This document shows, piece after piece, positions 17,334 to 22,154 of a stretch of 64,000 nucleotides of DNA. Made by a program: the position numbers and the translations under genes. The DNA comes from Verrucomicrobiota bacterium JB023 (GTDB lineage Bacteria > Verrucomicrobiota > Verrucomicrobiia > Verrucomicrobiales > Akkermansiaceae), in NCBI GenBank assembly GCA_030673895.1, contig JAUTCR010000044.1, positions 1 to 64,000 of the forward strand, written 5' to 3'. The notes beneath the pieces were generated by a model. That model was given only the letters and a program-made list of their open reading frames with translations, searched no databases and was not told the DNA's origin. Positions within the stretch are counted from its first letter, which is position 1; each line of letters starts with the position of its first letter.

Positions 17334-17830
17334 TGATTGAGCTCACCCATCTCTACCGCTCACCCGGGCACGACTTCTTTGGCCGTCACGGCAAGGGGCG
17401 TGAGGAGCATGCCATTGAATCCTGTGATACGCTGGAGCTTGTCGCCGGGAGCGGCATCGTTGGCGACCGCTTCTTTGACTACAAGCCAGACTACAAGGGG
17501 CAGATCACCTTCTTTGAAGAGTCTGTTTATGAGGCGGTGAAGAGTGAGTTCAATTTGCCTGAGCTGAGCTCGTCAGCTTTTCGCCGCAATGTGATTGTCC
17601 GTGGGGTCGAACTCGACAGTTTGATAGGCAGGCACTTCGCGATCGGCGACATCGAGTTCACGGGGAGCGAAGAATCCAAACCTTGCTACTGGATGGATGA
17701 AGCCTGCGCTCCGGGAGTCGAAGAATTCCTGCGCGGTCGGGGGGGGCTGAGAGCCCGTATCCTAACAAGCGGAACACTCACCAAAGGTCGGCATGACCTC
17801 ACCCTCCTCGGCGATATCCCCGTGACTTGA
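17330..17830 (+). CDS. MOSC-domain protein
   Basis: 166 residues starting at the ATG that overlaps the TauE-like stop. MOSC features: GSGIVGDRFFDYKPDYKGQITF near the start, FRRNVIVRGVELDSLIG, IGDIEFTGSEESKPCYWMDE with the conserved Cys, and GLRARILTSG. MOSC domains bind sulfur-bearing molybdenum cofactors or carry sulfur to them; single-domain members are of uncertain function. Its link to a TauE-type anion exporter suggests sulfur chemistry, which is inference. Confidence 0.88.
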   Translation: MMIELTHLYRSPGHDFFGRHGKGREEHAIESCDTLELVAGSGIVGDRFFDYKPDYKGQITFFEESVYEAVKSEFNLPELSSSAFRRNVIVRGVELDSLIGRHFAIGDIEFTGSEESKPCYWMDEACAPGVEEFLRGRGGLRARILTSGTLTKGRHDLTLLGDIPVT

Positions 17831-17863: not shown

Positions 17864-18202
17864 ATGATATCACCCGACAAGCCCGAGCCCATGAGATACA
17901 GCATCCTCGGAGAGGACAATTCGACCGATGGAGAGAAGCTGGAGAAATACACCGGGGATGTGGGATGGAACTACCTTCGTCCCCACTATGAGCGGGGTGC
18001 TCTCTACTTTGTTGATGCTGAGGTCGACATGGTCGAGGTGGGCGAAGCGATGGCTGCCGACGAGGCTGAGAAGGTCAAAGGGTGGCTGAAGGCGGGCGAC
18101 TTGGTAAAGATTGAAGCGCTGCATGCCCTTCAATGGGAGGAGAGTGACACCCGCTTCGAGGCGGTTGTGATCTCCCCGTTTGTTCTTTGTCGCCCAATCT
18201 GA
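17864..18202 (+). CDS. DUF2288-domain protein
   Basis: 112 residues. The body YTGDVGWNYLRPHYERGALY, then DAEVDMVEVGEAMAADEAEK, VKGWLKAGDLVKI and FEAVVISPFVLCRP match the DUF2288 pattern of small soluble proteins. The function is unknown. It starts 33 bp after the MOSC gene and ends 46 bp before the cobalamin riboswitch; a GC hairpin (GCCCC-TCGGA-GGGGGC, about 18215-18231) follows it and may act as its terminator. A second Met at residue 10 is a possible alternative start. Confidence 0.8.
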   Translation: MISPDKPEPMRYSILGEDNSTDGEKLEKYTGDVGWNYLRPHYERGALYFVDAEVDMVEVGEAMAADEAEKVKGWLKAGDLVKIEALHALQWEESDTRFEAVVISPFVLCRPI

Positions 18203-18248: not shown

Positions 18249-18413
18249 GACGTTGGTGCAGGGATGCATGGAATCCGGTGAAAATCCGGAACAGGCGCGC
18301 TGCGGTGACCGGTTACGAAAGTCCCATCAGCCAATCTTCGTGTGACGAAGGTGAAGGCGGGAGCGGTAGGTTTGAGCCGGGAGTCCGAATACTTCATCCT
18401 GCTGGTCAACGTC
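18249..18413 (+). promoter_or_regulatory. Cobalamin (B12) riboswitch aptamer
   Basis: The core GGAATCCGGTGAAAATCCGG at 18270-18289 followed by AACAGGCGCGCTGCGGTGA is the conserved adenosylcobalamin aptamer centre (E. coli btuB: GGGAATCCAGTGCGAATCTGGAGCTGACGC...). A hairpin CTTCGT-GTG-ACGAAG follows, then the B12-box-like GAGTCCGAATAC...CCTGCTGGTCAACGTC. The ends pair: GACGTTG (18249-18255) with CAACGTC (18407-18413), and GCAGG with CCTGC, closing P1. The remaining 116 nt before the ATG at 18530 form the expression platform, with a 7-bp stem CGTCTTC/GAAGACG. High B12 is expected to repress the genes downstream. Confidence 0.92.
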
Positions 18414-18529
18414 CGGCCTGTTGCAATCCGGGGCAGCTGGCGGCGACGTCTTCTCGCGAGATGGAAGACGACGGGAATTGCCGACACCAATCATGGCGTC
18501 CGTTCTCGCCCGGTCTCATAGAGAACGAT

Positions 18530-19087
18530 ATGAAATTGAAAATTGCCGCCCTTCTCGGGCTCGCGACAGGGATGGCGCAAGCCGTCATCAGCATTGGTAG
18601 TGGTCCCGACTCTAGCTACCTGGTTCTTGAGTCCCCCAACCTTGGCGTTCGGGAGTATGAAGTGTTCTACACTTACGATGCGAACGACCCGATGGATGCT
18701 GGAGACCTTCTCCTCTTGGCTGATGATGCCGATACCGAGATCATCTTCTCCATCTCCAACTTCGGAACTACCGAGCAACCGAATCTTTTTCTTGGTGCGG
18801 TCGAGTTCAACGGAACGACTGAAACCGGCAGCGGCTCAAGCTACTGGGCCCAATGGGTCTCAGGAGGGGAGGCCGGATACCCGACGGCAAATCCAGTAGC
18901 CGACGGAGTCTGGAGTTTTGGGAGCGGGAGCTCCTATCCTTACCGTATCATTGAGCCAGGAAGTAGCGATGCCTTCGTCTTTGGGGATGGTTCGATCAGC
19001 CCCTCGGTGGCCCCGATTCCAGAGCCAGCGAGTTCGGGTCTGGTCTTGCTTGCCAGTCTTTCCCTCCTCGTCCGTCGTCGGCGATAG
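18530..19087 (+). CDS. PEP-CTERM protein under cobalamin riboswitch control
   Basis: 185 residues from ATG 18530, the first start after the riboswitch; the longer frame back to 18278 lies inside the aptamer and is not coding. It has a signal peptide (MKLKIAALLGLATGMAQA), a mature domain rich in Ser, Gly, Tyr, Asp and Glu, and the C-terminal sorting signal: I-P-E-P near residue 163, a hydrophobic helix (SGLVLLASLSLLV) and RRRR. Exosortase would process it and leave it at the cell surface. It has no recognised enzyme motif. Because it precedes a TonB-dependent receptor under one B12 sensor, a surface role in corrinoid capture is a reasonable guess. Confidence 0.88.
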   Translation: MKLKIAALLGLATGMAQAVISIGSGPDSSYLVLESPNLGVREYEVFYTYDANDPMDAGDLLLLADDADTEIIFSISNFGTTEQPNLFLGAVEFNGTTETGSGSSYWAQWVSGGEAGYPTANPVADGVWSFGSGSSYPYRIIEPGSSDAFVFGDGSISPSVAPIPEPASSGLVLLASLSLLVRRRR

Positions 19088-19201
19088 GCGGGAAGACCTT
19101 ATTGTCTGAGTAGGGAGGTCATACGCTTGTGCCCAAGCACAAGTGTCGGATCGGCGTAACAGGGTGTTGCGGCGGTCCTCTGCCTGCTAGGAGATGTGGC
19201 T

Positions 19202-21163
19202 GTGAGCATCCAGCTGTCAGTTTCGATTGTCTTGTCCTGCCTCATCGCGGAGGAAGGCGTGCGTGCGCCATCCTATGAGCTCGATGAGACTTTGGTTGAA
19301 GCGTCGCTGATCCCATCCTCCGATAAGGAGTTCAAGCAGGGCGGAGAAACCCGGTTTGCGAGAGAGGACATTGCCAACTCCACTGCGACTTCGGTTCTGG
19401 ACTTCTTGCAAGATGAGGCTGGGCTGCCGTTCAATTCAATCTACGGGAACTCTCGTAGCGGTGCGCCTGTCTGGCGGGGTTTTGCAGGAGCCCGGCGAAC
19501 TCTTCTTCTCGTTGACGGTCTGCCCAGGAATCGGCCCGACTTGGCGACAATGGATTGGGGGAGCCTGAGTCTCCCTGCCATCGAGAGCCTTTCGCTCCGT
19601 CCGGGCGGGGGCACAGTGAGGTATGGGAGTGGGGCCTTGGGAGGCGTTATCGCAATTCAGTCGCGCGAGCCTGATGATGAGGCCGAGCTCAAGCTCTCAG
19701 GCGCGTCGGGCAATGACGGGGCGCGCAGCGCGCAGCTTGCCCTCAGTCTTCCAGGAGAAGAGCTCTCACTCACCGTCAACGCTGAGAGCGATGAGACGAA
19801 TGGCTTCCGGGAGCATGGCTTCCGCACCGACCAATCGATCCGAGTCGGCCTGGCCACAAGCTCTGAGGGGTGGGCCTCAAGTTCGTTATCGTTCCTCGCT
19901 GCTGAATCGGAATTCGCTAATCCCGGTGGGCTGTCTTACGAGCAATTCCGAGATACACCCCGGGCGAATGCTGGCTACGTGAATGGATTCGAGGAACTCT
20001 ATCAGTCTGAGATTTCCCGACGGGAGTTGGGATACACTCTGCGGCTGAGGCCTGGGCATGCTGATTGGAATCACCAGCTTGTCGCGAGAGCGATGCGCGA
20101 AGAGAGGCTCATCGACCAAGGTGGGTTCTATGCGGATAACAGTCTGAACACTTTTCAAGGTGAGCTGGTTAGCAAATTTCAAGGGGCGAAGCTGAGACTG
20201 GAAGCCGGCCTTCGGTGGAAGGTTGAGGCGCTTGATTTCACTTCCTACGCCGACATCGAGCGAACCTCTCCCTTGCAAGAGGCGGAGCTCTCTCGCTCGA
20301 CTGGTGGGCTTTTCGTTATCGCGGAGCGAGCTCTTGGGGAGCGCTGGCTTGTTCGGCAAGGGCTCGGGGTCGAAGGATATCTACTGAAAGGGGACTCGGC
20401 GGGCGATAGCGAGGCCAGCTCCTTTTCGGAGTCCGATGAGAGACTCAATTGGGCAACCGAATCGGCCCTTGAGTTCAACGATGGTGAAGACCTCCGCGCT
20501 TGGCTTCGTTACGAGCAGGTCTATCGGGCGCCGTTACTTGATGAGATTGCGGGCTATCAGGGATATCTCCTGCAGGTTCCGTTCAATGCTGGACTTCGAC
20601 CTGAGGAAGGCCATCGATTCGAGCTAGGCGGAGAGTTCGGCAGAGAGTCGCTCCGGTTGGGCGGCCTGATCTACGGTACTTGGTTGGAAGATGAAATTGC
20701 CTTCCATGATGAATTGAACCGGAACCTGTCAGCTACCAGAAGAGTCGGAGCTGACTTGTGGTTCGGCTACGAGGAGGAACATTGGTCACTCAATGCACGC
20801 TATGGGTGGGTCGAAGCTGAGCTACTAGACGGGCCGTTTTCAGGTGGAGAATTGCCCTTGGTTCCCACCCATACCCTCTCTGGGGGAGTGGAGGTCAAGC
20901 CGATTGAAGAACTGACGCTTGCGACCAACGTGTCTTACCAAACAGAAGCATGGCAGGGGGATGATTTCGAAAACACTCTCACGCGGGTTCCAGCGCGGGT
21001 TCTGGTCGGCGTCTCCGCGCGCTGGAAGTTCTCGGAGAACTGCACGATTCGAGCGTCGATCTCCAATCTCTTGGATGAAAACTACGCCAGCTATGCGGCC
21101 GCAGGGCAGTTCTATCCCGGTGCTGGGAGGCAATGGTTGGTGGGAGCGAGTTATGAGTTTTAA
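19202..21163 (+). CDS. BtuB-like TonB-dependent receptor, probable cobalamin transporter
   Basis: 653 residues. The GTG at 19202 is preferred because AGGAG lies 8 nt upstream; GTG 19196 is too close, and an ATG at 19194 is out of frame and stops at once. After a signal peptide comes a TonB-box-like DETLVEA, a plug domain (TATSVLDFLQDEAGLPFNSI, RRTLLLVDGLPRNRPDL, then SLRPGGGTVRYGSGALGGVI) and a beta barrel ending in the outer-membrane signature WLVGASYEF. The length is close to E. coli BtuB (614). Riboswitch control points to cobalamin. No btuCDF genes are nearby. A hairpin at 19123-19146 lies in the 114-bp gap before it. Confidence 0.85.
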   Translation: MSIQLSVSIVLSCLIAEEGVRAPSYELDETLVEASLIPSSDKEFKQGGETRFAREDIANSTATSVLDFLQDEAGLPFNSIYGNSRSGAPVWRGFAGARRTLLLVDGLPRNRPDLATMDWGSLSLPAIESLSLRPGGGTVRYGSGALGGVIAIQSREPDDEAELKLSGASGNDGARSAQLALSLPGEELSLTVNAESDETNGFREHGFRTDQSIRVGLATSSEGWASSSLSFLAAESEFANPGGLSYEQFRDTPRANAGYVNGFEELYQSEISRRELGYTLRLRPGHADWNHQLVARAMREERLIDQGGFYADNSLNTFQGELVSKFQGAKLRLEAGLRWKVEALDFTSYADIERTSPLQEAELSRSTGGLFVIAERALGERWLVRQGLGVEGYLLKGDSAGDSEASSFSESDERLNWATESALEFNDGEDLRAWLRYEQVYRAPLLDEIAGYQGYLLQVPFNAGLRPEEGHRFELGGEFGRESLRLGGLIYGTWLEDEIAFHDELNRNLSATRRVGADLWFGYEEEHWSLNARYGWVEAELLDGPFSGGELPLVPTHTLSGGVEVKPIEELTLATNVSYQTEAWQGDDFENTLTRVPARVLVGVSARWKFSENCTIRASISNLLDENYASYAAAGQFYPGAGRQWLVGASYEF

Positions 21164-21269: not shown

Positions 21270-22154
21270 ATGAAAATACGAACAGCATTATTATTGTCGA
21301 CGACGCTCGCCGTAGCTGGTCCTTATGCTCCGAAAGCGGGGACGGAGGGGAGCACTGCCATCGCGCTCGATGATTCACGGATTGTCGCCTGGGCCACGGA
21401 GGTGTCATCCTATCAGCCGGGTTTGGAAGTCGACGAAGCTTGGCAGGATGAGAGCCGCGCCCTAGGGCCCGCTGAGGGTCAGAGCGGGACCATTGTCTCC
21501 CTGGGCCGGGGAGGAGAGATCGTCTTGTCCTTCGCTCAACCGATTGGCGACGGGCCTGGACCTGATTTCGCGGTCTTCGAAAATTCGTTCTCCGATTCCT
21601 TTCTCGAGCTGGCTTTCGTGGAGGTCTCTGCGGATGGGTCGAATTTTGTCCGTTTTCCCAACGATTCGCTCACTGCATCGGCGGTGCCGGCGTTTGGGGT
21701 GAATGATCCAACCAACGTCACCGGCTTGGCTGGAAAATACCGCGGCGGTTACGGGGTTCCTTTCGACTTGGCGGAGGTGGGTCTCGCTTCAGTCCAATAT
21801 GTTCGTCTCGTCGATGTGGTGGGAGGAACCAGTCTCGATTCCTCGGGTGATGTGATTTACGATCCTTATCCCACTGTTGGCTCAGCGGGTTTCGACCTCG
21901 ATGGCGTTGGCGTCCTCAACGAAGACATGGAGGAAATCAAAATCCTCTCGGTGGACGTAGTTAATGGTCAGTTTCAGCTCACTTGGTCTGCAGTGGCGTC
22001 CGTCACCTATGTGGTGGAAGAGTATGATGCCACGAATGGCGAATGGGCGAATTTAACGACCCTTGTCGCCGATGAGGAAACAGCGTCATTCACGACTGAA
22101 ATGGCTGCCAAAAAGCAGCGACTTGTTCGGGTGAAGGTTTCAGCGGAAAGCTAA
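21270..22154 (+). CDS. Exported beta-rich protein of the cobalamin cluster
   Basis: 294 residues with a signal peptide ([20 protein letters not shown]). The body has motifs I recognise from exported proteins beside TonB-dependent receptors in Verrucomicrobiota, Planctomycetota and Bacteroidota: ARALGPAEG-like context, [44 protein letters not shown], and [20 protein letters not shown]. These suggest a carbohydrate-binding-like beta sandwich. The last 70 residues ([20 protein letters not shown]) look like a fibronectin-type domain. It has no PEP-CTERM signal. It begins 106 bp after the receptor gene and is likely the third gene of the riboswitch operon. The function is unproven. Confidence 0.8.

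Follow-up and report, generated by a model that had tools for sequence, protein, structure and literature searches.

The first gene behind a cobalamin riboswitch in the stretch of Verrucomicrobiota bacterium JB023 DNA analyzed here (the window, 64,000 nucleotides) encodes a secreted PEP-CTERM protein whose mature domain is predicted to adopt the fold of the transcobalamin/intrinsic factor beta-domain. Judged by this predicted fold and by the context of the locus, the product of this gene (gene 1) is probably a cell-surface corrinoid-binding protein.

Layout of the locus

The riboswitch is followed by three genes on the same strand. The features of the locus are:

18270..18392, + strand: RF00174 cobalamin riboswitch aptamer, compact form (model positions 47-167)
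18393..18529, + strand: leader between the aptamer and the start codon
18530..19087, + strand: gene 1, secreted PEP-CTERM protein of 185 aa (ATG at 18530, stop at 19087)
18530..18583, + strand: probable signal peptide of gene 1, residues 1-18 (hydrophobic N-terminus, cleavage after AQA; read by eye)
18584..19015, + strand: mature domain of gene 1, predicted transcobalamin/intrinsic factor beta-domain fold (profile match 18569-19018)
19016..19087, + strand: PEP-CTERM sorting segment of gene 1 and stop codon (TIGR02595)
19196..21163, + strand: gene 2, TonB-dependent receptor of 655 aa (PF00593, PF07715)
21270..22154, + strand: gene 3, secreted protein of 294 aa, from a family similar to the H domain (B12-binding) of Bacteroides BtuG1

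The aptamer scored 65.1 bits (E 8.1e-14; gathering score 31.5) and was the sole RF00174 match from that search of the 4.03-Mb genome. The C-terminus of gene 1 matched TIGR02595 with 16.7 bits (cut-off 16) and with 21.1 bits in a six-frame search, while Pfam PF07589 gave 14.7 bits, under its cut-off of 20.7. The PEP motif, the hydrophobic segment and the basic end fit the PEP-CTERM pattern, with TIGR02595 above cut-off. The RF00174 and TIGR02595 matches thus bear out the first-pass annotation of a PEP-CTERM protein as the first gene after a cobalamin riboswitch. In the same genome, PF09721 (exosortase) matched twice, and a search for PEP-CTERM segments gave 45 matches at E up to 0.1.

Five terminator-like sites were found between positions 17800 and 22400 (4.6 expected), none of them in the leader, and the fold z-score of the leader region 18393-18545 was −0.94; by the terminator-site scan and this z-score, no expression platform can be named in the leader. 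Directly 5′ of the riboswitch lies a gene for a DUF2288 protein (17864-18202).

Outside its sorting segment, gene 1 matched no Pfam family at E up to 1, in agreement with the earlier remark that its mature domain belongs to no recognized family. A search of PHROGs returned no match below E 0.07, and PF14717 (DUF4465) matched neither the gene 1 protein nor the window's genome.

Riboswitch linkage among relatives

A search with the gene 1 protein in 98 genomes (its own included) gave matches at E up to 0.001 in 21 genomes, most of them short and located in the C-terminal part. Four homologs other than the window protein itself are nearly full length (45-51% identity). These were found by protein similarity alone, and a cobalamin riboswitch lies ahead of all four. 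RF00174 was matched in 71 of the same 98 genomes at E up to 0.001, in 60 of them above its cut-off, and 40 stretches around riboswitches, a part of the riboswitch loci found in relatives, were fetched. By our own reading, the first gene is of the PEP-CTERM type in 21 of these 40 stretches and a TonB receptor in 13, the latter being without a gene-1-type protein. Most of the 21 PEP-CTERM first genes fall into three groups: the window group (four besides the window), group A (eight aligned, plus a further two) and DUF4465 proteins, of which four were scanned. Compared as profiles from which signal and sorting segments had been left out, the window group and group A are related in their mature domains (probability 96.6, E 6.8e-10). 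In one stretch (L067), a member of the gene-3 family takes the first place behind the riboswitch, and its end is PEP-CTERM-like.

Since a scan of genome contigs with the close family yielded too few loci (three), the survey was based on genomes of the order and of the phylum. The order profile, which comprised 13 domains, eight of them chosen for their position after a riboswitch, was searched against 386 genomes and matched 39 at E up to 0.001, with one match each. The matches divide by strength into 33 with E up to 2e-14 and six weaker ones (5.7e-6 to 4.5e-4). The first-pass annotation had held that homologs lying mostly outside B12 loci would speak against it; this outcome did not appear, as the domain is preceded at 114-241 nt by a same-strand cobalamin riboswitch in 30 of the 33 strong matches, and the remaining three are located at contig ends where the riboswitch would lie. 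Among the 20 strong matches that were no seeds of the profile, 17 are linked and three are cut by contig ends. None of the six weaker matches is linked (0/6).

The family to which the gene 1 domain belongs extends through the phylum: 40 of 387 genomes match, 34 of them new. The best 25 of the 34 were checked for linkage, and a cobalamin-clan riboswitch was present at 20 of the 25 loci, 97-308 nt upstream in 19 cases and 1879 nt upstream in one. At five loci (L175, L178, L180, L185 and L194) no riboswitch reached the gathering threshold; L175 and L178 were inspected with 1.5-kb flanks only, and a TonB receptor gene and a homolog of gene 3 lie close by in L180 and L185. Since the linkage recurs in counts over relatives, the setting of gene 1 is more than a chance neighborhood.

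Several observations were made alongside. L179 and L187 have the gene 1 slot after riboswitches of the cobalamin clan other than RF00174, namely RF01482 and RF01689. The six weaker matches of the order survey (L137-L142), which are without a riboswitch, all have a prepilin-type ORF, called by motif, in their stretches; in L137 and L141, a neighboring ORF was read by eye as threonyl-tRNA synthetase.

The slot behind the riboswitch is held by DUF4465 PEP-CTERM proteins in L068, L069, L078 and L094. The four scanned proteins matched PF14717 at E-values of 1e-41 to 8.5e-56, and a profile of the four retrieved 9hmu first from the PDB (E 1.2e-56). Five genomes with DUF4465 were covered by the riboswitch search as well (G027, G031, G039, G052 and G071), and by position all five are linked. 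The first-pass annotation had assumed that PEP-CTERM proteins, which the entry IPR013424 describes, are usually linked to exopolysaccharide or floc formation and not to vitamins. This premise is out of date: according to passages of PMC12751083, where the name BtuJ is given, 88 of 824 DUF4465 proteins carry IPR013424, and passages of PMC13398666 report B12 binding by DUF4465 proteins, including those from Haloferula luteola and Coraliomargarita akajimensis (structure 9HMU). DUF4465/BtuJ (9HMU, 9FCT, 9I2L) has the slot behind the riboswitch, PEP-CTERM sorting and neighbors in common with gene 1, but it is described in passages of both papers (PMC12751083, PMC13398666) as a jelly roll, unlike the predicted beta-grasp of gene 1. 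Relatedness of the gene 1 family to DUF4465 was rejected, the profile comparison giving a probability of 0.5%. The two domains, present in 39 (gene 1) and 23 (DUF4465) genomes, were found together in none of 386, and both surveys appear to cover the same 386 genomes; by numbers, this mutual absence is not significant (hypergeometric P 0.08-0.12, phylogeny ignored).

Predicted fold of the gene 1 domain

The idea of a transcobalamin-type domain arose from a sequence pattern, before the structure search. Gene 1 residues 11-163 (153 residues) were modeled from a 48-row alignment, with a mean pLDDT of 93.7 and a pTM of 0.88; an earlier five-sequence model was poor (pLDDT 49), and no fold claim is based on it. 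The top five rows of a Foldseek search against the PDB were three transcobalamin chains, among them rat transcobalamin and the human transcobalamin beta domain, and two chains of 3u7z, all with probabilities of 0.95-1.00; the sixth row had a probability of 0.07. The E-values of the top rows were 0.014-0.11 and their query-normalized TM-scores 0.41-0.44, and none of the rows reached E 0.001 (best 0.014).

VIA-align, which re-examines Foldseek's list only, placed haptocorrin, intrinsic factor or transcobalamin at ranks 1-14, with Z 9.7-11.4 and rmsd 2.1-2.6 Å. Its best row was haptocorrin 4kki (Z 11.4, rmsd 2.1 Å over 99 residues), and the carrier rows show 10-17% identity over 99-104 of the 153 residues. 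Rank 15 was the bacterial protein 3u7z of Ruminococcus gnavus, which we take to be a DUF4430 protein and whose fold is likewise similar to that of gene 1 (Z 9.1). The first other row, which we assume to be a ubiquitin-like protein, followed with Z 6.2.

The order of elements in the model and in the transcobalamin beta domain is alike (strands, a helix, two strands, further strands). Strands 61-67 and 76-83 come after helix 47-57; judged by strand positions, this would agree with the beta-hairpin insert that the transcobalamin-like clade of the SLBB superfamily has immediately behind its helix. In the connector between strands 4 and 5, 15 of 34 positions are invariant, compared with 26 of 111 elsewhere (five sequences, P 0.03); the boundaries of the connector were set after the model had been seen, and its higher conservation is only suggestive.

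PF14478 (DUF4430) found no match at E 10 in the window's genome, and the 48-row profile found no chain at E 10 among PDB sequences. Neither the close family nor group A gave a useful match when searched against PDB sequences, and when profiles were compared with two of the phylum's DUF4430 proteins, the result was no better than with shuffles. Assignment of gene 1 to DUF4430 as a sequence family was rejected, as no similarity is detectable by sequence. Since sequence methods are blind to the transcobalamin tie, we infer common ancestry from the fold alone. The predicted model has the beta-grasp that characterizes the transcobalamin-like clade of the SLBB superfamily (PMC1796856); given that sequence homology is not detectable, it is the fold that we claim, and not membership in this clade.

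The first-pass annotation had proposed comparison with BtuG, BtuH and carbohydrate-binding folds and had counted a clear unrelated enzyme fold as evidence against it. No such enzyme fold emerged; the predicted fold is that of a B12-carrier domain, and it is other than those proposed. A few lectin chains appear in the Foldseek rows, only with probabilities of 0.02 or less. BtuG, BtuH and BtuJ lie outside the rows shown for Foldseek and VIA-align, which excludes nothing. BtuG is a seven-bladed beta propeller; judging by the model, a 153-residue beta-grasp, a propeller would seem unlikely.

Both the transcobalamin-type carriers and gene 1 are secreted. Unlike the carriers, gene 1 is without the alpha/alpha toroid, is PEP-CTERM anchored, adjoins a TonB receptor and is missed by PF14478. 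The human transcobalamin beta domain has been crystallized by itself with cyanocobalamin, as stated in passages of PMC5599065, and the beta-grasp fold serves other ligands too, according to passages of PMC1796856. The latter describe bacterial transcobalamin-like proteins together with CbiO/CbiQ-type genes, unlike gene 1. Two PF14478 matches were retrieved from the 387 phylum genomes, with no riboswitch in the fetched stretches.

Neighboring genes and proposed function

Gene 2 matched PF00593 (1.4e-23) and PF07715 (3e-13). Its match to TIGR01779 (BtuB) had an E-value of 2.3e-20, yet its 72.7 bits fall short of the cut-off of 599.7, and the three chains found in the PDB are all siderophore receptors; gene 2 can be called BtuB-type by context only. 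A profile of the gene-3 family (31 sequences) had one PDB match below E 1, residues 373-497 of 8blw_B (E 3.1e-4), which spans 107 of 241 profile positions and hence a part of the domain. According to passages of PMC10404256, 8BLW is BtuB1G1, and BtuG1 has a C-terminal extension of ~250 residues that is homologous to BtuH2, a B12 binder. Going by its name and length (663), chain B of 8blw should be BtuG1, which would place residues 373-497 within this extension. In Bacteroides, the BtuH protein and BtuG1's H domain (7BIZ, 8BLW) serve surface B12 capture in riboswitch loci, as is proposed for the window, and the likeness to them belongs to gene 3, not to gene 1.

The gene-1 and gene-3 domains are found in one open frame at 12 distinct loci (L080, L175, L181, L184, L186, L188, L190, L191, L193, L194, L195 and L196). 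In L080, a PEP-CTERM segment lies between the fused domains, so this fusion may be read-through. Two open frames, L181 2799-5282 and L193 3316-5859 (both on the − strand), hold two tandem gene-1 domains followed by a gene-3 domain. L073-L076 and L088 have two gene-3 family proteins each, in open frames of 628-841 residues from stop to stop.

Among 64 distinct loci with gene-1 or gene-3 domains, a TonB receptor was found in 13, a prepilin-type ORF in 33, both in none and neither in 18; the counts cover the fetched stretches, and prepilin-type ORFs were called by motif. An H-x-DG end is also present at 30 of the 33 loci with a prepilin-type ORF, and two such ORFs that were checked belong to TIGR02532. 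The pattern of pilin or receptor is seen in L066, L069, L070, L072, L080, L089, L137-L142, L144, L146, L149-L153, L174, L178, L181-L184, L186, L188 and others. It looks as if a pilin-like gene takes the place of the TonB receptor.

In our best reading, gene 1 would encode an exosortase-anchored, riboswitch-controlled, transcobalamin-type corrinoid binder that serves the TonB receptor. When cellular cobalamin is low, the riboswitch would permit expression of the operon; the gene 1 protein would be exported, processed by exosortase and placed at the surface, where its beta-grasp domain, alone or with the BtuH-like product of gene 3, would bind corrinoids and hand them over to the gene 2 receptor for import. 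The riboswitch step and the anchoring would follow from known properties of such systems, corrinoid binding is predicted, and the hand-over is modeled on Bacteroides, as described in passages of PMC10404256. The working mode would be like that of BtuG, BtuH and BtuJ of Bacteroides, with gene 1 bringing a transcobalamin-type domain and not a propeller or jelly roll. The window's genome (rated 97.5% complete) gave no match for CobS, the one biosynthesis gene looked for, and one protein with a B12-binding domain; it follows that an imported corrinoid is likely needed. The predicted fold and the locus context thus support the earlier guess that the protein binds or presents corrinoids.

A more specific version of this mechanism, which we put forward tentatively and consider rather doubtful, is a two-part clamp, in which the gene-1 beta domain and the BtuH-like domain would sandwich a surface corrinoid, in a manner resembling the alpha and beta halves of transcobalamin, and pass it on. 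The halves would be two proteins, as in the window, or one fused polypeptide, and the corrinoid would go to the TonB receptor or, in receptor-less loci, take a route through the pilin-like protein.

One can also imagine that gene 1 encodes a surface adaptor for the receptor or for polysaccharide, which docks B12 binders or shields the receptor without contacting corrinoids. The lipoproteins BtuL and BtuK2 of Bacteroides B12 operons did not bind, according to passages of PMC12751083, and the fusion of the gene-1 domain to a BtuH-like domain in 12 loci could point to a scaffold. However, the matched folds are B12-carrier domains, clearly apart from the generic ubiquitin-like rows, and the same slot can hold DUF4465, a B12-binding family; we regard an adaptor as unlikely. 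Alternatively, the ligand may not be complete cobalamin but cobalt, another tetrapyrrole or a precursor such as cobinamide. Passages of PMC1796856 propose that bacterial transcobalamin-like domains scavenge B12 or precursors and remark on cobalt-transport neighbors, and haptocorrin binds cobinamide and analogues well (passages of PMC5599065). Some gene 1 relatives are also without a riboswitch, but every riboswitch found belongs to the cobalamin clan. CobS is needed for completing cobinamide, and the failure to find it in the window's genome likewise makes another ligand improbable.

It is, finally, highly improbable that gene 1 encodes an ordinary floc or biofilm PEP-CTERM protein lying behind the riboswitch by chance. 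Residues 87-185 do match floc_PepA (NF033554) at E 9.8e-6, and the genome is rich in PEP-CTERM matches, as given above (45). However, the floc_PepA score of 25.5 bits, to which the shared sorting segment contributes, is far under the cut-off of 80, and we rejected this identity; moreover, the riboswitch linkage recurs throughout the phylum.

Bacterial transcobalamin-like domains were proposed in 2007 as B12 scavengers of low-GC Gram-positives, planctomycetes and euryarchaea (passages of PMC1796856), and the main text of that paper contains no word starting with Verrucomicrob, no TonB and no riboswitch. Searches of the literature, with most subscription journals outside their scope, turned up no description of a riboswitch-linked, transcobalamin-like PEP-CTERM protein. 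In the relevant passages of a paper that names both PEP-CTERM and the cobalamin riboswitch, the PEP-CTERM genes adjoin c-di-GMP riboswitches, which is unrelated.

The gene 1 protein, a corrinoid binder in our preferred reading, would be a variant among known B12-capture proteins, tied to transcobalamin by fold and not by sequence. If this is true, a fold of animal B12 carriers would be present on the surface of a Gram-negative phylum, held there by exosortase and encoded in riboswitch-controlled TonB loci, and it would add a further scaffold to the propeller, the BtuH domain and the jelly roll of the Bacteroides surface B12 binders. The family is without a Pfam entry, and a new kind of PEP-CTERM protein would gain a role in vitamin uptake. 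The gene 1 family also provides new sequences for the question of the origin of transcobalamin.
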